From: Crambe crambe
Lineage: Eukaryota; Porifera; Demospongiae; Poecilosclerida; Crambeidae
Assembly: GCA_963924555.1 (NCBI GenBank)
Contig: OZ004590.1
Span: 4,952,001-5,016,000, forward strand
Reading direction: 5' to 3'
Length of the DNA stretch: 64,000 nucleotides
The translations under genes and the position numbers were made by a program. Numbering within the stretch: the stretch's first letter is position 1; each line of letters begins with the position of its first letter. Shown in pieces: positions 51,990-63,978 of the stretch. The notes beneath the pieces were generated by a model. It saw only the letters and a list, made by a program, of their open reading frames with translations. It did not search any database and had not been told where the DNA came from.

Positions 51990-54900
51990 GCTTCTTAATC
52001 TGTAACAGGTTGCTGTTGATACTGGCAGCTTTAAGAGTATGGTGGAGCTCCTTCAGAGGAAAACACTCCACACCATGGCGTACTCTCATTTGATCTCCAT
52101 CATTTACCATTGTCTTCTTCTCCCAAGTTAGTCATCTTATGCTCTTACAAATGTACTCTCTATACCATTGTCTCCTCTTCCCAAGTAAGTCATTTTATAG
52201 GAAAGTGGACTTAGGGTATTGAAGGGGCTAAAGCAAGGTGTTCTTTTACTTAGGAAAAGAGTACCTGCAAACACAATATTATTTCAACTCGTCTGTACAG
52301 TTGACGATCCTCTTTACATCAAGTACTGGCAACTGATAGACCGTATGGTGCAGCAAGTGGTTCTCCAACAACGGCAGGGGATCGATCCTGATGTAAACCC
52401 CATCCCCATCAGCGTAGACTCCATTGTACAACAGTACGTCAATTTGTAGCTGCACCAGTCAGTGACCCCACGTACCTCTGGACCACCTTTGCCTCTCTCT
52501 ATTCACTTATTGTTTTCCATAATTATTGAATTGGCATGTTAATTAAGGGTTGACCCTGTAGTTCAAATTGTAGTACTTACATACATACCTGTCTTGTCGG
52601 CTACTATCACAGGAGACTGCTAGAATCTTTGTGGAGGAAACATGGCATTTAGCTTCCTTATATGGAAAGCTAGTGACTGTTATTCTAGAAGGCATAGGGG
52701 AAGGTATAAGGCATATTAGCCCGCTGTGCCTTAAAATGCCTGGGGTGAACCCTGCTTCCTCTGCTCTTAATTAACCACCTCACACACACCACGAAATACT
52801 GAACGTTCCATGCTGGTTTCTGTCTCACTTGTACACATGCAGGCTTGTTAAGGAGGATGAACTGCGAGCACTCCAGAGTGAGATGAAGGAGATGAGGAAA
52901 GCACGAGATGACCTCCGACTGAAGCTGAGGAAGAAGGAGTGGGAGTGCGAGGACAGACAGCGGGAGAGGGACCAGCAGAAGGGCATTGCCGAGAAGCTGA
53001 GAGTCAAGCTCAACCGGAAGGGAGCAGAGCTTAACGATGCTTGGAACAGGGAACAGAGTGCAGCAGATAAAATGACACAGTTACAGGAACAGGTGATTAT
53101 ACTACAATACTGTATTTCAGTATGGCATTTGTGAATGGTTGAGCATATTTGAGCTAATAAAAATGGAATAATATTCAGTTTCCTTGTTCCCTTGTTATTT
53201 TTTTCCAAGAATAAAAACTATCAATGAGAGATTTACCCCATAAAAAAATCTCCTTCAGTTGTACTTCTTTATGTGCGATTGCCATTTGTAGGTTAATGTG
53301 TACGAGCACAGAATAACTCAACTAGAAGCAACACTAAAGAAACATGACATCAGTCTGAACGAGATTGATGACCTAGCACCACCACTTGCCAAGTCATTGG
53401 CAGCTCCAACTCCTTCCTCCCCTCCTGCTCCCCCTCCTCCCCCTTCGCTGCCATTTGCTCCTCCCCCACCTCCACCTCCACCTGGTAAGCCTGTCTACTG
53501 ATTCTTGCAGCGTGACTAATCAAGATTAGGGGCTATACATGTCCCATATTATAGTGGGAAATTTTTTTCATAAAAAGGGAAAATTTTGCACGAAAATATA
53601 CTCCACAGAAAATTTAAAGTCTATTTGCATTCATTCGATCCTATTTGCTATACTTTCTCAGATTTTTCTCAATTCTTGATTTGGTCAAGAGTTATAACGC
53701 AAATAGACTTTTTTTAGTGTTTCTTCTTGCATGACATGTCATGTTCAATTTCAGACTTCATTTCATTTAGTGTATTATTTTCAGGTGCACCACAACCACC
53801 CCCAGCTGCTCCTCCTTTCAATTCGTCTTTCAGGGCCCCCACAAAATTTGCCCCTCAGCCATCTCAAGCGCTCAAGTCCTTCAATTGGAACAAGATTCCC
53901 CACAACAGAATCAGCCGGAACAGCGTCTGGGCAAGCATTGATGAATCAAAGGTAAAATTCTTATAGAGCACAGCATACCTTGAAGCATAGGGGCCCACTA
54001 TGGCTTCAAGTACATCTTCCTTTGATGTGGTCAATAGAATGCTGATTAACCATAAATACTCTTTGATGTGTGAAACCACCCCTATTCCTCCACTGATATT
54101 TTAGGGAGAACACTGTAGAATGTACTGTCCATTGCAGGTTGGTTGTCAGGAAGGTTAGGGGAATAGGTGGATACAATTTGTCCTATGGTTTACACAACTG
54201 CATGGATTGTATAGGACATGAAAGGATCAGGTTTCTTAGGTCCTTGTAAGCCACTACCTATTTCTCATTCCTTACTGACAACCATCCTGAAATCTACCAT
54301 TCCTTATGGACAACCATCCTGAAATCTACAGTATATGGTAGAGAGGTTTGCCTAGCTCTTTCAGAGGAATTTCTTGATACAACTTTCTCTTTTGCTTGTA
54401 TGCAGGTCCATGCAGTAATGGATATGAATGATTTTGAGAAAACCTTCTCCGCCTACCAGCCTACCAGTGAAGGCAGCCCCCAGGATGGTGGAACACTCAA
54501 ACGTCGGTCCAAGATCCTCTTGACTCTTGGCGAGCGTCCAAAGGAGCTCTCCTTGATTGATGGAAGGAGGGCTCAGAATCTTAATATTCTCCTCTCTAAA
54601 TATAAACTCTCGGAGGACGGGATTAGAGAGATGATCTTCAGTATGGACAGGGAGGGGAAGCTGAATAAAGACATGGTAGAGCAGCTGCTCAAGTTTGTAC
54701 CCACTTCAGCTGAGAAAGAGCTTCTGGAGCTTCACATTTCTGAGAAGTCAAACTTTGCAAAGGCTGATAAGTTCATGCTTGTAACCAGCAGGTGAGATAT
54801 AATTCTAGCTAGCTACCAGCTGTTCTTTCCTATTCCACTTCCCTCCCCCTCTCCCTTGCTCCCTCCTCCCCCTCCCCTCCCCTCCCCCCTCCCTCCTTCC

Positions 54901-56851
54901 CCCCTTGCTTCCCCCTCCCTCTTGCTCCCTCCACCCCCTCCCAAGTGTCCATGGGACAAGGTATATCACTTTTCTCCCTCTCCCTCTATCTAGCATTTTG
55001 CACTATGGACAAAGATTGAGAGCTCTTCACTTCATCAAGACACGAGACGAGCGACTTGGCGACATGCTACCTCAAATCAAGGACCTTCTCCATGCGTGTG
55101 ACGAGCTATCAACCAGCAAGAAGCTGAAGAAAGTTCTAGAAGTGGTGCTTGCCTTTGGCAATGTCATGAACCAAGGAAATAGGGGAAATGCATACGGGTT
55201 CAGACTCACCAGTCTCAACAGAGTCATGGATACCAAGTCCAGCGCTGACAGAGAGATGACACTGCTCCACTATGTCATCAAGACCTTAGAAGCTCAGGTA
55301 GATGATAGCTCTTTCATGAGATAATGGCTATACAGTGTAGCCTTCTTCTTGTGACCACCTATGGGCCAGGAACAAGTGGCCTCAATAGGGAGGTGGTCGT
55401 TGTTGGGACAGTGGAGTGGCCTTGATAGAAAGGTGGTCTCTTTAGGGAGGTTGAAATAGTTGGAATAGGTGATGGAGTGACAGGTGGTCGAAATAGGTGC
55501 TGTTGGGACATGGTGAAGTCCCCCTAATTACTCTTTAGGGTTGAAATATATAGCTGGAAATAAGTGCCGTTAGGACAGCCTTAATAAAAAGGTGGTTGGA
55601 ATAGGTGCTATTGGGACATGGGAGGTGGTCTCACTATAGGGTGATCTGAGTTTCACTGTCACACTTCAATTTTTACCCCACGAAAGTTCCATAGTTTAAC
55701 CATGTTTCAGTTCATCCCCAACCTATCGTTAAGCTAATGTGGTTATTCGTTCATATTATAGTTTAAAGATGTCCTTGCCCTGGAGAGCGAGCTTCAGCAT
55801 ATCAGAAAAGCTTCAAAAATTGAGTAAGTTTTACATGAAATGTGATTTACCCATTGTGAGATCATTATTACTCTAGCCTCAAGGAAATTGAGAAAGAGTT
55901 CAGTGATATGAAGATGGAGGTGAGGGAGATGAAGAAAGAAATCGAGTTCCACCAATCGCAGGATACTTCTGAGTCCAACGACCTCTTTGTCCCCACCATG
56001 GAGGGCTTCATAGCGGAGACTACCAAATCTTTCCAGATGTTGGAGGAACTCATCATCAAGATGAAGGAGAAGTTTGTAAAGATCTTGGAGTATTTCGGGG
56101 AAGAGATTGGAGATGGCCAACCTTACATGTCCACTGATGAATTCTTTGGCATCTTTTCCACTTTCCTACAGTCTTTCTCTGTAAGAGTTGAACCAAGACA
56201 AACTAAGCTTTGCTTTTTGCATGATTTTTTTATATATAATTATTATATATATTTTTTTTTCTAGGAAGCTCACATGGACCTTATTGCTGCTCGCAAAAGA
56301 AAAGAAGAAGAGCAAAAACGAAAAGAGGATTTGGTAAGGGGAGGGAGGAGAAGGGAGGGAAGAGTGGGGAGGGAAAGGAGGGGTGAAGAGGGGAAGATGG
56401 GGCAGGGGAGAGTGGGGAGGGGTGAAGAGGGGAAGATGGAGCAGGGGAGAATGGGGAGGGAAAGGAGGGGTGAAGAGGGGAAGATGGAGCAGGGGAGAAT
56501 GGGGAGGGAAAGGAGGGGTGAAGAGGGGAAGGGAGAGAGAACTGCTAACATTTAAGGTAATATGAACTGCAGGAAAGACAGAAGGAGATGACACTCCGTA
56601 GGAGAAGAAACAGGTTAAAACTGGAGGCATCGGCAGATAGCAGTTCACCAACTGGAAGAAATTCAATGGACTTCCCAGAAAACACAGAGTTTGACGAGCT
56701 GATTTCCTCACTGAAGACTGGAGACTATTTTGCACGTAGGAGGAGCCGGTTGAATTCAACATCGTCCGCATCATCACGGAGAGTGGAATACAGTAGAGAG
56801 AGACCACCATCAACTATTGACCTCCTTAGCAAAAAATCTGAACAGTCATAA
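47190..56851 (+). CDS. DAAM: DAAM-type formin (Dishevelled-associated activator of morphogenesis)
   Basis: DAAM formins nucleate and elongate unbranched actin filaments downstream of Rho and Dishevelled. Exons: 47190-47504, 47679-47759, 48857-48928, 49041-49135, 49206-49341, 49414-49504, 49557-49663, 49796-49906, 50324-50427, 51600-51666, 52009-52126, 52301-52433, 52843-53092, 53292-53484, 53785-53951, 54406-54791, 54994-55297, 55762-55823, 55877-56180, 56265-56333, 56573-56851. All in phase, 1,147 residues. GBD/FH3 (about 85-470) shows [49 protein letters not shown] and RTRFQTL, which are DAAM-specific. A coiled coil follows (about 477-585), then a short proline-rich FH1 (about 595-640) and FH2 (about 655-1030; [40 protein letters not shown]). 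The DAD-like end has [14 protein letters not shown] followed by a basic stretch, so autoinhibition is expected. Known family, clear match. Confidence 0.96.
47760..48856. other. DAAM intron, unique sequence
   Basis: 1.1 kb of AT-rich DNA with no repeat, RNA gene or exon that I recognise. The 3' part has a CpG-containing patch, GCGCATGAGTGCGTGCGCGG, near 48784-48803. Confidence 0.5.
49693..49783. promoter_or_regulatory. Four p53-family-type half-sites in a DAAM intron
   Basis: GAGCATGCTC occurs at 49693-49702, 49720-49729 and 49743-49752, and GAACATGCTC at 49774-49783. All four fit the p53-family half-site rule RRRCWWGYYY exactly. Gaps between them are 17, 13 and 21 bases. The first three extend to the perfect palindrome TGAGCATGCTCA. 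Regulatory function is inference; a decayed minisatellite is the alternative. Confidence 0.5.
50428..51599. other. DAAM intron with an unassigned minus-strand open frame
   Basis: Contains a T tract near 51025-51050 and a GC-richer block at 51120-51560. That block has a minus-strand open frame of 139 codons (51540-51121) without recognisable domains. The block differs in composition from the rest of the intron and could be an old insertion. Confidence 0.4.
51697..51985. repeat. AAT/AAC trinucleotide array in a DAAM intron
   Basis: Nearly 290 bases of AATAAT with interspersed AAC triplets, ending about 23 bases before the acceptor at 52008. Poly-Leu, poly-Tyr and poly-Ile open frames here are artefacts. 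Confidence 0.97.
55333..55658. mobile_element. Probable CAGTG...CACTG element in a DAAM intron
   Basis: Begins TA-CAGTGTAGCC and ends GAGTTTCACTG. The interior has repeated GGTGGTC and AATAGGTG words resembling the other family members. The right side lacks a TA duplicate, so the boundary is uncertain. Confidence 0.4.
56334..56545. repeat. Purine-rich minisatellite in a DAAM intron
   Basis: Units of roughly 50 bases (GGAGGGAAAGGAGGGGTGAAGAGGGGAAGATGG...) occur about four times between the donor after 56333 and the acceptor at 56572. The array starts at the donor itself. Confidence 0.85.
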
Positions 56852-57040
56852 CAAAAAAATTCTTCTCAAAATGTCATTTTTAACTGTGTATTTTTCGTTT
56901 CATTTTCTTGTGAAGTGCTCTCTTTGGGTATTTCATGCACAGTGTGCGCATAATATATTCATTATTATATAATTTCAGTTTAAAAATTTAATACTAAAAG
57001 TGAATGATATAAAAGTGAACCACATGATAACAGCTGTTAA
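56852..57040. other. Tail-to-tail spacer between DAAM and the PTB gene
   Basis: Only 189 bases for two 3' ends. ATTAAA on the minus strand (plus-strand TTTAAT at 56987-56992) is a possible poly(A) signal for the PTB gene. Transcripts may overlap. Confidence 0.4.
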
Positions 57041-59624
57041 TTAAGATGATGTGATAGGGTCCATTTTCAGCCAATATTTTATAGCATCCATAATCTGTTC
57101 TACAGGCTCCACCCCACAACGAAACACGTGGACTTTCTTGATGTTTGGGAAACCAGGTCTGTGAGATGCGAATGCGAAGAGTTTGGGATCTGTAGGATGT
57201 CTGCAATAACCCACAATCGTCTTGCATGGGTAGTTCCGATGGATGAACAATTTATGAGTCTTGTCCATGAGGTTGATACCGAGTGAGGAGACCTGGAGGT
57301 GGATTGTGTTCTTCAGGACAGCTGCTTGCCCAGCAGCTGTCCCTTCAGAACTGAATCGGCTTAGGGCGTCCTCTACAGAATCCTGAGTCAGCAAATAATC
57401 GTGAATGGCGGAACCGATGTAAGTTACCGGGAACCTGGCGTACTCGTCTTCAGTGCACTCCAGTGGGGAGGTGATGGTGTTATCTTTGTTCCTGTGAGCT
57501 GGGCTTTTGGGTATGGCATGGGAGAGGGAGGAAGGGGGTGGGAGGGTGCTAGAGCCAGTGCCAATGGAGTCCATGTTACGTGTGTGTGATTGGAAGGTGG
57601 GTGAGGGTTGTTTCGTGGTGGCAGAAGTGGAAGTGGAGGTAGCTGCTCGTTGGGATAGAGACATCGTGAAGGATCTGATCCGTTTGACAATTCCCGAATT
57701 ATCGTTGAGGCTTGAAAGTGTACTCTGGAGGAAAAAAAATAATAATTCAGTAATCTTCAGTAATCTTCAGTTACTAATCTTCACTATTTTTAGAATTGAT
57801 TTTCATGAATCCTCACTGTTTAGTGACATTACTGTAACAGTATCAGACTTTTACTGCTTACCAGAGCTAAATATCAAGAGAAAACAAGTCCTTTTGAACT
57901 GACTAACAACTTTGATTTCTCTATAGAATACACTGGCACGATAATGTGTAGCTACTCAAGCCAGCTATCTAGCAGGTCCTACTTTCTAAAAAAGCATGAT
58001 ATGGAAGTGCTTCATTACGTAGCTACAACTCTATATTATTAAAAGGACTGACAGAGAAAATTCTTTCTCGGATTAAACAAACATTCAAGTTATGATAAAT
58101 GTAGTGAATGTGCATACTTGTAGTTGATACACTTTCAAGTATATATTTTTCCAGACAAGGGCCAAGCCCTAAAAGCATAGTAACAGCTGTCTCCATAGCA
58201 TGGATACACACACAGGGGTAAGTTTCCTCATAATACATTTGAAGGGCCTTGGGATAAAAAAGACTTATGAACCCTTTAGTCCAAACTCGTGTAATAGTTT
58301 CAGATCGAGTGTAGCTGTACTTTCAAACAGGGTGCTTAATTGAATTAAATAGATTGATTATTAATCATATGGATAATATTTACTAATACCTCATTAGTTG
58401 CAATGAATCCCTAATTACTTGCACTCATAATTATGCTCATGTAGTTCATAATTGCACTCCTACATCTGCACATGTGCAGACTAGCCATAGTAACGATGTT
58501 TCTGGGTTATTTCTACATGGGTAATTTGCATTCGAAACTGTCTAAAATTGCACTGGCTTCCCTTGTGCAATTACCTAGCCAGTTTCTTTACTAATTGGTT
58601 ATTAATTAATGCAATAGACCCAGCCCACTTCCTCTAAAGTTTCTACACCCAAACAGGATGGCCCACCCTGCATTTAGCATACTGGGGGAAACGATGACTT
58701 TGATTCATACATACCTCCACTGAAGTCTCCCAATCTTCGCTCTCATCTGTGGATAATTCATCATAAAAGGTGCCTCCTCTCTGGGAAGATGTCAGCTGAC
58801 AGGATTGCCTCAAGAAGGACGTGAAGGACACCATCAGTGCAGCACTGTTGCACTTAATCACGTGACCCATCTGGGCCTTCCCTTCCTCCTTGATGATATA
58901 ACCAGCGAATCTCTTGTCCTCCAAGAATACACCCATTGCTCGAATCCTACTCGTCTCATGGGACAGAAACAAGATCCTCTCTCGCTGATTGGTGCCCGGA
59001 TTGCTCTTTTCCTCCATGAGTCGAATCTCCAGCAGACTCAGAGAGAGAGAAACCATCTTGGCCTCGCTCGGTCTGCATTCGTTCAAAACTTTCTCAATAA
59101 CAGTGTTGATGCTATGGACTTTTCCTGATATGGTGGTGGAGCCAACATACAGTGCTGGAAACCGATGAAGAATCTCAGTAATAGCATCCTCATTGCCTGA
59201 AGTGTTGGCATTGGAAAGTGGGTGTGGTTCGACATCCACCTGTATGTCATGATTATTATGGTAGCATGTTAGAGTATGATATGGTAGAGAATGCATGTCC
59301 CTCACACAAATTCACACCATCCAAGACCAACAATCTCCCAATGGACATGGGTTTCTGGACAAAGCATTGGCATTGGAATTGCGTCCATTTCCTGTATTGT
59401 TAGTAGTGTATACCAGTGATATGGTAGCATGCATGTCACATGTCAGAGATGCTGGTCATGATTGATAGGTAGCATGCATGATGTCACATGATGCTGGTAG
59501 TGACATGATGCATGTCACGTGACAGAGATGCATGCTGTTATGACATGCAAGTCACAATAAATGGCAGAGATGTTGGCAGAATCCTAGGTGCTAAATATAT
59601 TCATGAGTGGATAATTAGATCAGG

Positions 59625-59673
<49 letters not shown>

Positions 59674-60252
59674 GATACATGGACAATATCGACACCATAT
59701 AAGCTGATTCTTATTATGAGCCTGGCCTGGTTTACTTAAGCATATAAACGTGACATGAAGTTAAGTGCTAAGGAGCTTGTATACACAGCGCACACAGAGT
59801 CAACGTGCAAAAACAATTTGAAGTAAGTGCAAGTCATGGGAGACAACAAACACCTGATGACTTCACTCACACCAATGCCATGGGCTGACTGATGATATAC
59901 ACAGAGCCATTACATAAGTCTTACCCCACAAATCTCACCATTCTTATTAATGCAGCAATAAAGCGTACTTACTGATAGGATAAGGCAACTGTTTTCACTG
60001 CAACGGAACTGCAGTATCTGCCAGCTAGCAGTTACACACTGCCATGGTTACTAATGGACCCTCTCCTGGCTGCCACTGTAGGCATGCAAGCTGAATTTTC
60101 TATGCAATGGACTAACAACCATTCCCCAAATGCTACTATGCACAAGACCAACAACAGAACTGAATGGGTATTGTGCATGAGATTGGCAGATGAAACATGG
60201 TAGTATACTATAGTATACTATAGTATACTAGTATAATATATAATATAGCAAG

Positions 60253-60311
<59 letters not shown>

Positions 60312-63300
60312 CTTTATGTACTATAATTGATGGATGCCAAGTTTATAACCTGGTATTCACATTCCTTCACCCCCAAATCACAGTGAATAGTTGTATTTTG
60401 GATGCAAAGAAATGAGAAATCACAACTTTATATCCCTGTGAGGATAGCAAATCACTATTCTAACAATATATCTAGTTGGTCAGTTGGTCATTTGTTAATT
60501 CTAAGAATTCAATTCTGTCAATTATAGCCCCTGGGAGAAAGCTGTTTTTTGACTACCATTCCAACCAACCAATCAGCCAAACAATTTTTTTTTTCAATTT
60601 TGTGGGGAGGGGAGGGGAGTTATAAGTGATGATAAATCTGTACTCTAGACCAAGCATCTATAGGTACATATAGGCCAGGGTGCAAAATCTGTAAATTAGG
60701 TCTATGGTCAATGGCTGAGTGTGTTATGATAAAGTTCCCTATGGGAGAACAGTTGGCCTTTTAAGTAGAAACTCGAAAACCACTAATTGACACAACAGTC
60801 CCCTTAACCAGTCTGGGAGGTTTCAACATATGGACTGCGGGCACTCATTGCCAAGGATGGCTGCAGCTGTGGTTCCTAACCATAAACCTTGCAGTCTTGA
60901 AATTATAACACATACCAGTTAGCAATACAAGATTCAAAAACAGTGCTCAGCTGTACTATTTAAGTCTCGTCAGTGAGTATACATACCACATCAAGGTGAT
61001 AATCAACTAAAGTTTTGTGCAAGTTTTTAAAACTAAATTATTGTTGCCTTATTTCCATGTGTATCTATTAGGTTTCTGTTGACATGGCTGGTAATTACTA
61101 ACCCATTACACAGACAGCATTATGTAATGCATATAGAGTGGAGATTTCTGAGAGTTTGATCCCTTTCTCTCTCCTCCCCTCCCTTCTCCCTCCCCCCTTT
61201 TCTCTCTCCCTCCCCTCCCTTCTCCCTCCTCCCTTTTTTCTCTCCCTCCCCTCCCCTCCCTTCTCCCTCCCCCCCCTGTTCTCTCTCCCTCCCCTCCCCT
61301 CCCTCCTCCCCTCCCTTCTCCCTCCCTCCCCCCTTTTCTCTCTCCCTCCCTCCCCTCCCCTCCCCTCCCCTCCCTCCTCCTCAATGACATTAGTGGCTTT
61401 TGATACTGGTAAGTTCAGCTGGAAATGACTATTTGTGGGCACAACAAATACTACTGCTTTGCCCATGCAGGGTTGCAAGACAGACAGCAAGACTGCCCTG
61501 TGACACCAACAACATGACTGGACAGACATTTTTGGCCATAGACAACAATTCCAGCCTAGCATATTTTCGCAGGGTAGTTCCAATAACCAAATATATATTG
61601 TTAGGATCTCCACACCAGTAACTATAGTAACTTCGGAATACACCAGTTCAAAAATGGAAGCGTGCAAGATGTAAATAATTCTTGATTGTGTCGTTTATAG
61701 CGACTAATTGGACCGGCTTTATGTGGACGTCTTCTTATCAGCCAAGTAGCCTAGTTGCTATGAAAGCAAGCTCGACTTCAAGGAGAAGTGAATCCTTATC
61801 TGGACTGATAAGCCATGCCACAATGAACCATATACTTTGAATCATAACGTGATATTATGCTAGTGTTTAGTGATTGCCACAGAATACAGGGAAGATGGCC
61901 TGAGATGGTTCCTCTGAGCACGATTGTATTATTATACTTCCTAGGACACCAAAGAAAAAATGAGGATGTCCCTCTAATTAAAAATGAGGATGTCCCTCTA
62001 ATTGAAGCGTCTCGAACCTAATCTGAAATGGAAAGGCTTTTGCTGTATATTAAACAACCGAAATCTTATTTTTAATCAAGTGGATAGGAGAACAGAAAAT
62101 TAGAACACCTTTGCCGTGTCCCATTAGTGTTTCCCTCTAATCAAGACACTTTCTCCGTCTTATTGCATTATAATTTACCCTGAAATAAGGGACACCTCTC
62201 TAGTCAGGACACTTCTGTGTCTTTATAAATGTGCATTAAGTTTAATAGACCTTGAAAAATAAGGGACACCTCTCTAGTCAGGACACTTCTGTGTCTTTAT
62301 AAATGCATATTATGTTTAATACACCCTGAAAAATAAGGGACACCCTGAAAAATAAGGGACACCTCTCTAGTCAGGACACTTAATTTTTCAGGTTCCAAAG
62401 TGTCCTCATTAAGAGTACTCACTGTATATTGGAGAGTAAAAGTTCCCTATTAAGTGCAGAAAACACACAAGTTTCCTACCATATCAAAGGTATCACAAAC
62501 CAGATGGTTCCAGTTCCTTTAATTAAAATAGCTAAATTACCTCACTTGAGGGGACATCATCCACTTTCTGGGTTTGTTCCCACAAAGCATCAAAGAGAGA
62601 CACAGCTGTGATGTTGTCACGACAGCGAAGGATGTGGCAAGCCGGTTTGCTGTCCTTGGATTTCCAGATCATGATCCCGATGATACGCTTGTTCTTGGAA
62701 CACTGCCTCACAAACAAAATATCCTTCACGGCAAAGGATAGGAAGAGGGTGGCACTGTTGGGAGGGGCCAGTCTAATTCTCTTGGAGGTGACGTACACCT
62801 GGACTTCCTTTGGTCTTTGGTCTGCTGTTAGCTCCTTAGCCACCGAATTGATAGACTTAATGTACATGTCTACTTCTTTCATGCCCAGATAATCGGCACA
62901 GAACTTCCCACTTTCCTCTCCTTCTTTGCACTGGAGGAAAGTGACAGTTTGTGAACGTTGGAGATCCAGTGAGTTCAAGAAACTGGAGGACTGTGGAAAC
63001 GCTCTCCGATGGAAATACTGAGGTTTTGATGAATACTGAGATTTCGATGGATAAGGAATAGAATGTGGTTGATTTGAGGATGGGATGTCTTTGGAGGATA
63101 AAGGGGAGCATTCATTATCATCACCATCATCATCATCACTACTGTCGTCCAAATCAAAATTCCGTGGAGGTTTTATGGGTCTAGTTTTGATCATCAATTT
63201 GTGATCTGGAGATATCAGTACCACTTTCTTTCCTCCACTGTCTTCTTTTTTAGAGAGGCATGTTGATAGTATCTTATCCTGTGGCATGGAGAGAGAGAGA

Positions 63301-63978
63301 GACTGCTCACCTACGCTTGTGTTTGATTGAGTCTGCCGTACAAGTGGACGATGATGCACCTTGGAGAGTGAAGGGCTGGATCTTGGAAGAGCAGAACACA
63401 CGAGAGACAGAGGAGATGGGCTCACTGCATCTCTTTCAACACTGGAACCTGAGCACTGACTTTCATTGCTGCAAGAAGTTTCTGATCTTGTTTTGGTGCA
63501 GAAGACGTAAGGCTCAAAGACAGGTTCTGGAAGGGGAGAGGGAGAAGAACTGATATCCTTATACCTCTCCATCAAGTCTTCAGACTTGTAACCCGAGGAC
63601 AAGGGATCTCTGGTTGTAGCACAACTATTCTCCATTTCTGTGTTCAATCTGTGCACACAGACACCACTCTGTTCTAGGTTGGAGTTTGAATTCAAACTTT
63701 CAGCAGTAGATGATGCTCCAACAGCTGCAATGCCTGCATAGCACATCTTCAGCCCCTCCTCATGAACGTCTTGCAAGATACAAGGATTGATAATAGCCTG
63801 CTTGTCCTCAGGGCATATAAATTCCTCTGAGCCAGCTCTTCCTCCCAGTCCCTCAGGCATCTTTAGGTTGCAACTGCCTCCTTCTTGACCGAAACTTGGC
63901 GAGAAGTCTCTCACCGAACAGAAATTGGAGAAGTCTTCATCGAAAGCTGTGTCTAACTGGGTTGCCATGGACTGCCAG
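57041..63978 (-). CDS. Adaptor-like protein with three PTB/PID domains (5' end open)
   Basis: Three coding exons, 63978-62541 (ATG at 63968), 59239-58715 and 57724-57041, join in phase 0. From that ATG they give 878 residues. Residues 1-350 are low-complexity, Ser-rich, with an acidic run (DDSSDDDDGDD). PTB1 is about 355-468 (FCADYLGMKEV, ALWEQ), PTB2 about 500-625 (FPALYVGSTTI) and PTB3 about 744-872 (FPVTYIGSAIH). Each has the Y-hydrophobic-G turn of PTB strand 1 and ends in an amphipathic helix. PTB3 matches the tensin C-terminal type (VSSLGINLMD, KLFIHRNYPCKTI, KLFAFASHRPG). PTB domains bind NPxY tails or phosphoinositides, so a membrane-proximal scaffold is likely (inference). An acceptor precedes the ATG, so at least one more exon lies beyond the window; it may be UTR or coding. 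No SH2, kinase or GAP domain is visible. Confidence 0.8.
57725..58714. other. Intron of the PTB gene, no recognised content
   Basis: About 990 bases of AT-rich sequence with a short direct repeat, CAGTAATCTTCAGT, near 57747-57772. No exon or mobile element is recognised. Confidence 0.5.
59624..59671. repeat. CT microsatellite
   Basis: About 48 bases of CT repeats inside the large PTB-gene intron. Confidence 0.9.
60255..60307. repeat. GA microsatellite
   Basis: About 53 bases of GA repeats, just after a run of TATAGTATACTA palindromes. Confidence 0.9.
61160..61385. repeat. Pyrimidine-rich minisatellite
   Basis: CCTCCCCTCCCTTCTCCCTC-type units repeat about four times with TTTTCTCTCTCCC punctuation. 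Gly/Arg/Glu-rich open frames on the minus strand across it are artefacts. Confidence 0.85.
61955..62412. repeat. Array of GGACACCTCTCTAGTCAGGACAC units, 74-base period
   Basis: AAGGGACACC begins at 62187, 62261 and 62335, a period of 74, then at 62354 (19 further). A shorter doublet, AAAATGAGGATGTCCCTCTAATT, is at 61958 and 61980. The vocabulary (gaggtgtcc, tctaat, cactgta at 62419-62425) is shared with the CAGTGGAACC family, so this looks like an internally amplified member. Confidence 0.7.

Follow-up and report, generated by a model that had tools for sequence, protein, structure and literature searches.

The window, the whole 64,000-nucleotide stretch of DNA analysed here (C13:4952001-5016000 in a searched genome of 143 Mb and 119 contigs), carries on its minus strand three coding exons that probably form a single gene encoding three PTB domains. 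Coding exon 1 (62541..63968, minus strand) runs from an ATG at 63968 through a Ser/Thr/Pro/acidic-rich N-terminus, which extends to approximately residue 350 (S/T/P/D/E account for 43% of residues 1-340), into PTB domain 1, and ends at the donor GAG/GTAATT (the slash marks the exon border). Coding exon 2 (58715..59239, minus strand; 525 nt, symmetric with phases 0-0) encodes PTB domain 2 and lies between the acceptor ACATACAG/GTG, which scores weakly, and the donor GAG/GTATGT. Coding exon 3 (57041..57724, minus strand) follows the acceptor TTTTTTTTCCTCCAG/AGT and encodes a Ser/Thr/Pro-rich linker and a tensin-type PTB domain 3 before the stop codon TAA at 57041; a possible poly(A) signal, ATTAAA, is located at 56987..56992 on the same strand, approximately 50 nt past this stop. 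Both exon-exon junctions are in phase 0 with GT/AG borders, and the predicted product is 878 aa long (476, 175 and 227 aa from exons 1, 2 and 3, respectively). The coordinates, strand, open exons and phase-0 junctions given in a preliminary description were all as described there; of the gene extent that it proposed (57041..63978) the lower end stands, and the upstream limit shifts slightly, the first in-frame ATG being at 63968.

The ORFs holding exons 1, 2 and 3 are 487, 222 and 241 aa long, and since the longest ORF obtained by simulation was 224 aa (mean of the longest 156; n = 30 random 64-kb sequences), the exon 1 ORF is far above chance, that of exon 3 slightly above it and that of exon 2 at the maximum. 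The first in-frame ATG of exon 1 has the context CCATGG, and the stop codon of a LYR-family ORF on the same strand is located at window-equivalent 64166-64168, approximately 200 bp upstream; exon 1 therefore probably contains the start codon, with no coding exon likely to precede it. The LYR-family ORF itself (PF05347, E 6e-12) occupies positions 1166-1489 of L009 on the minus strand (window-equivalent 64166-64489), with a PP2C gene beyond it, and on the other side part of a formin gene with an FH2 domain (PF02181, E 1.6e-61; window ~54405-56851, plus strand) is convergent with the PTB gene. Intron 1 (59240..62540, minus strand; 3.3 kb) contains simple repeats as well as a repeat dispersed through the genome, for which there are at least 79 matches, including the window itself (1141-bp query; 40 of 123 candidates scored). 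A short repeat (about aagggacacctctctagtcaggacactt) at window ~62132-62429, also inside intron 1, has many copies across the genome. Intron 2 (57725..58714, minus strand) is 990 bp long. No Pfam match at E ≤ 0.1 was obtained for the one ORF searched in each intron (61098-61694 in intron 1, 58023-58322 in intron 2).

In an exon-by-exon Pfam search, domain 1 matched PF00640 (E 4.6e-7; 30.4 bits against a cut-off of 20.9) and domain 3 matched PF08416 (E 9.1e-8; 32.7 bits against a cut-off of 27), and no further Pfam domain exceeded its cut-off in the three exons. The core of domain 1 (62607..62867, minus strand; C13:5014607-5014867) was also recovered as a PF00640 PID match in the genome-wide profile search (E 8.6e-6). 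Across the genome PF00640 had 8 matches out of 13 candidates, and PF08416 occurred at three places, only one of which, domain 3, was above cut-off. The closest PDB sequences to domain 3 were tensin2, tensin1 and then ANKS1B (E 0.014), which together with the PF08416 match bear out the earlier designation of this domain as tensin-type. Pairwise alignment of domain 3 with the ANKS1B PTB fragment gave a z of 10.2, a flattered score in that the APBB2, ANKS1B and tensin2 fragments were chosen because the tested domains had found them. Elsewhere in the genome, a PID match in L001 (C15:1150191-1150475) has an in-frame TAA inside it; its flank has long stretches in common with a Shc-like locus (L006, C19:618842-618940), and it is possibly a partial duplicate.

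Profile searches with PF00640 and PF08416 had been proposed as a check on each domain; they placed domains 1 and 3 above cut-off, but for domain 2 Pfam yielded neither a PTB nor a PID match up to an E of 10 with the HMMER filters on. This lack of a match raises the alternative that domain 2 is not a PTB and that the protein has two. Against it, domain 2 is similar to domain 1 over its full length (32 of 112 residues identical; 0 of 2000 shuffles equal), and it matches a five-sequence PTB profile, which detected domains 1, 2 and 3 at E 2.3e-11, 5.9e-7 and 1.4e-8 (best shuffles 0.37, 0.42 and 0.23; n = 500 each) and was built from three PTBs of this genome and PDB fragments of APBB2 and ANKS1B that had come from searches with the domains under test. 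A three-PTB profile, made only of genome PTBs picked by Pfam and free of choices made with the tested domains, scored domain 1 at E 1.4e-5 and domain 2 weakly (9.1 bits, E 0.084; 0 of 1000 shuffles equal), a result that fits the alternative. The same profile gave domain 3 an E of 0.13 (1 of 1000 shuffles equal) despite its recognition by Pfam and PDB, and the profile is itself weak, since it barely detects a Pfam-certified domain. With domain 3 included in the profile, domain 2 was matched at E 2e-7, yet one of 500 shuffles reached 0.0026.

Structure prediction gave a model of domain 2 with a strand-helix-six strands-helix order and a pLDDT of 88.1 (one of the five models had 43.9), corresponding to the seven-strand PH superfold with a C-terminal helix cap, and the best 40 structural matches were all PTBs; the three other rows of the input alignment were PTBs. 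Modelled without an alignment, the domain gave a poor structure (pLDDT 42) with no PTB among the 50 structural matches listed, which again favours the non-PTB reading. Taken together, the likeness to domain 1 and the predicted fold support the assignment of domain 2 as a PTB, and a two-PTB protein is scarcely credible. For domain 2, the structural check suggested in the preliminary description came out as a PTB fold, albeit one predicted from an alignment with PTB rows, and the count of three PTB domains given there is supported, domains 1 and 3 being identified by Pfam and domain 2 by likeness and predicted fold.

Domains 1 and 2 score a z of 11 to 12 against one another, whereas the best z of either against five other PTBs of the genome (two of them partial) was 8.7, obtained for domain 1 with a RabGAP1-like PTB (the Fe65-, tensin-, Shc-, RabGAP1- and FAM43-like labels of loci were assigned by eye). 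On sequence similarity, domains 1 and 2 are sister copies, and most simply they would have arisen when an exon that carried a PTB and was bounded by phase-0 junctions was duplicated. Domain 3 shows no likeness to domain 1 (928 of 2000 shuffles equal) and a weak likeness to domain 2 (35 of 2000), and it appears to be a PTB of the tensin/ANKS1 type with an origin separate from the other two. Because domain 3 is unlike domain 1, a single duplicated exon cannot explain all three domains; the exon duplication first proposed fits domains 1 and 2 but does not extend to domain 3, and the gene is better described as a likely duplicated PTB pair plus a third PTB of a different type.

The wider affinities of the pair are loose. 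A two-sequence profile of domains 1 and 2 had APBB2 (Fe65L1) PTB2 as its top PDB match (E 0.002), and pairwise z values against this fragment were 5.7 and 7.3 (0 of 1000 shuffles equal for each). Another PTB of the genome, L002, scored higher on the same fragment (z 8.7), and 'Fe65-like' is therefore a loose label for domains 1 and 2. Neither was significantly similar to PTB2 of the genome's own Fe65-like locus (689 of 1000 and 60 of 1000 shuffles equal, respectively). Domain 3 was weakly similar to the first half of the genome's own tensin-like PTB (28 of 1000 shuffles equal), a half identified by eye and with no Pfam match. Protein searches of the genome with domains 1 and 2 returned only self-matches at E ≤ 10 and were insensitive, the domain 1 query having missed domain 2. 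No relative was found in viral contigs with domain 3 as the query, or in genome contigs when the domains were joined into a 543-aa query; these collections are viral or prokaryotic, and the searches are uninformative for animals.

As to whether the three exons belong to one transcript, their splice sites were ranked against the 3489 GTs and 4624 AGs of the same strand using generic weights. The donor of exon 2 (8.6 bits) is within the top 1.3% of GTs and the acceptor of exon 3 (13.6 bits) within the top 0.06% of AGs, whereas the donor of exon 1 is fair (7.0 bits; top 3.0% of GTs) and the acceptor of exon 2 weak (1.3 bits; top 25% of AGs). The latter is close to the lowest-scoring acceptor of the formin gene (1.6 bits), the remaining formin acceptors ranging from 3.9 to 11.3 bits (n = 6, positions by eye). 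A CTAAC motif is present at -33 of the exon 2 acceptor; this is modest support, since the same pattern found none at the strong exon 3 acceptor. The exon 2-3 join is thus strong, and the exon 1-2 join combines a fair donor with a weak acceptor.

The weak acceptor would also suit two adjacent genes on the same strand, a single-exon gene encoding the N-terminus and PTB domain 1, and a two-PTB gene of exons 2 and 3 begun within the 3.3-kb gap, in which case domains 1 and 2 would be tandem gene duplicates. A candidate end for the first of these genes lies at 62518..62534 on the minus strand, where an in-frame TAG (62534-62532) and an ATTAAA (62523-62518) follow just past the exon 1 donor; in addition, the ORF of exon 2 has an in-frame ATG upstream of the exon, and the gap between exons 1 and 2 is long and bears repeats. 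Set against this, exon 1 has its fair donor in a phase that continues into exon 2, ATTAAA is commonplace (five copies on the minus strand in the scanned stretch, four of which lie in the gap from exon 1 to exon 2), and two genes would require a 3′ UTR that is very short and a promoter as yet unseen. We regard the two-gene arrangement as rather unlikely. Exon 2 carries the weakest of the scored splice sites and, being 525 nt long and in phase 0-0, could be skipped in frame, so that an optional exon 2 would yield two- and three-PTB forms of one gene; this form of alternative splicing is highly improbable. We infer that one transcript, from a single three-exon gene, probably encodes all three PTB domains.

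The 878-aa product of such a gene would most likely be a cytoplasmic adaptor or scaffold in which the N-terminus and linkers join three PTB modules, and at the membrane it would most likely bind more than one receptor-tail peptide, either from different tails or from multiple copies of the same one. In the literature, PTB proteins figure as adaptors or scaffolds, and choanoflagellate kinases may be exceptions; most PTBs prefer an unphosphorylated tyrosine, the tensin2 PTB can bind a non-NPxY site via an alternative surface, and Phe149 and Phe195 of Numb are described as essential to peptide binding (PMC3507883). In a single alignment, considered with a view to the binding of NPxY/NPxpY-type peptides, a Phe in the C-terminal helix was present in three of four comparators (the genome's own Shc-like PTB, ANKS1B and L002) and absent from domains 1, 2 and 3; the genome's own Fe65-like PTB lacks it as well. 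The aligned position is presumably that of Numb Phe195. A scaffold of three PTBs only, made from a duplicated phase-0 PTB exon and a tensin-type PTB, could be imagined to take non-standard ligands, for example via an alternative surface of the tensin2 type. The missing helix Phe need not mean unusual ligands, because it is missing from the genome's Fe65-like PTB as well, and Fe65-PTB2 binds the APP tail according to the titles of solved complexes; the non-standard-ligand reading is less probable for this reason, and as a whole we consider it doubtful. If the three domains do share one transcript, the gene would offer a defined case for tests of multivalent PTB binding, and would show an early-branching animal duplicating and recombining its PTB modules outside the familiar families.

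Compared with known systems, domains 1 and 2 are nearest, among solved structures, to PTB2 of the Fe65 (APBB) family, again loosely. Fe65 has a WW domain before its two PTBs, whereas this gene has a third PTB and no WW match, either in exon 1 (Pfam) or on C13 among 39 matches in the genome; WW matches adjoin an ORF with two PID stretches at the Fe65-like locus on C20. With tensins (TNS1-4) the gene shares the C-terminal PF08416 PTB, but tensins have an SH2 domain directly before it and this gene has no SH2 or PTEN_C2 match. Among the matches listed, for which 150 of the 166 candidates had been scored, no SH2 fell in the gene interval, and the exons were also negative in Pfam. Both searches ran exon by exon and could overlook an SH2 domain divided among small exons. 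At the tensin-like locus on C9, PTEN_C2 and SH2 matches share a strand and are separated by ~5.4 kb, and the Shc-like locus on C19 has one PID and one SH2 match. Among the matches listed, SH2 matches also form dense clusters at C5:1417826-1656255, C9:1487746-1614367 and C12:1751539-1843203, many of them paired on one strand at distances of a few hundred bases, which looks like a local expansion of SH2 genes. On C14, three equal weak SH2 matches (C14:3697948-3702252, minus strand; E 6.3e-4) with a spacing of 2058 bp lie within a giant ORF of 9513 aa made of tandem repeats. The PTBs of the EPS8 family fall into one Pfam family with the tensin PTB and occur without SH2. The absence of SH2 beside a tensin-type PTB, which the preliminary description had called unusual, is thus upheld as an absence, and its unusualness is weakened by the EPS8 family and by the separate tensin-like locus.

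Once the tensins are set aside, the PTB of ANKS1B/AIDA-1 is the best match to domain 3 in the PDB, but the ankyrin and SAM domains of that protein are absent from the exons of this gene in Pfam. TBC1D1 and TBC1D4 carry two PTBs, and domain 1 resembles the RabGAP1-like PTB of the genome; no TBC match was found in the exons. No three-PTB animal protein was found in searches of the open-licence PMC literature. The one counterpart found there is HMTK1 of Monosiga brevicollis, for which three PTBs are predicted with a tyrosine kinase at the end; the cDNAs of PTB 1 and 2 were not amplifiable and PTB 3 and the kinase alone were recovered (PMC3082566). Three predicted PTBs are common to HMTK1 and this gene and the kinase is found in HMTK1 only, which narrows the earlier claim that no three-PTB protein without other domains has been described; HMTK1 is both a precedent for such gene models and a warning on them. 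The locus probably encodes a signalling scaffold whose parts are familiar but whose arrangement is unusual; if transcribed as one unit, it would specify an unusual animal multi-PTB adaptor beside the separate Fe65-, Shc- and tensin-like loci of the same genome.
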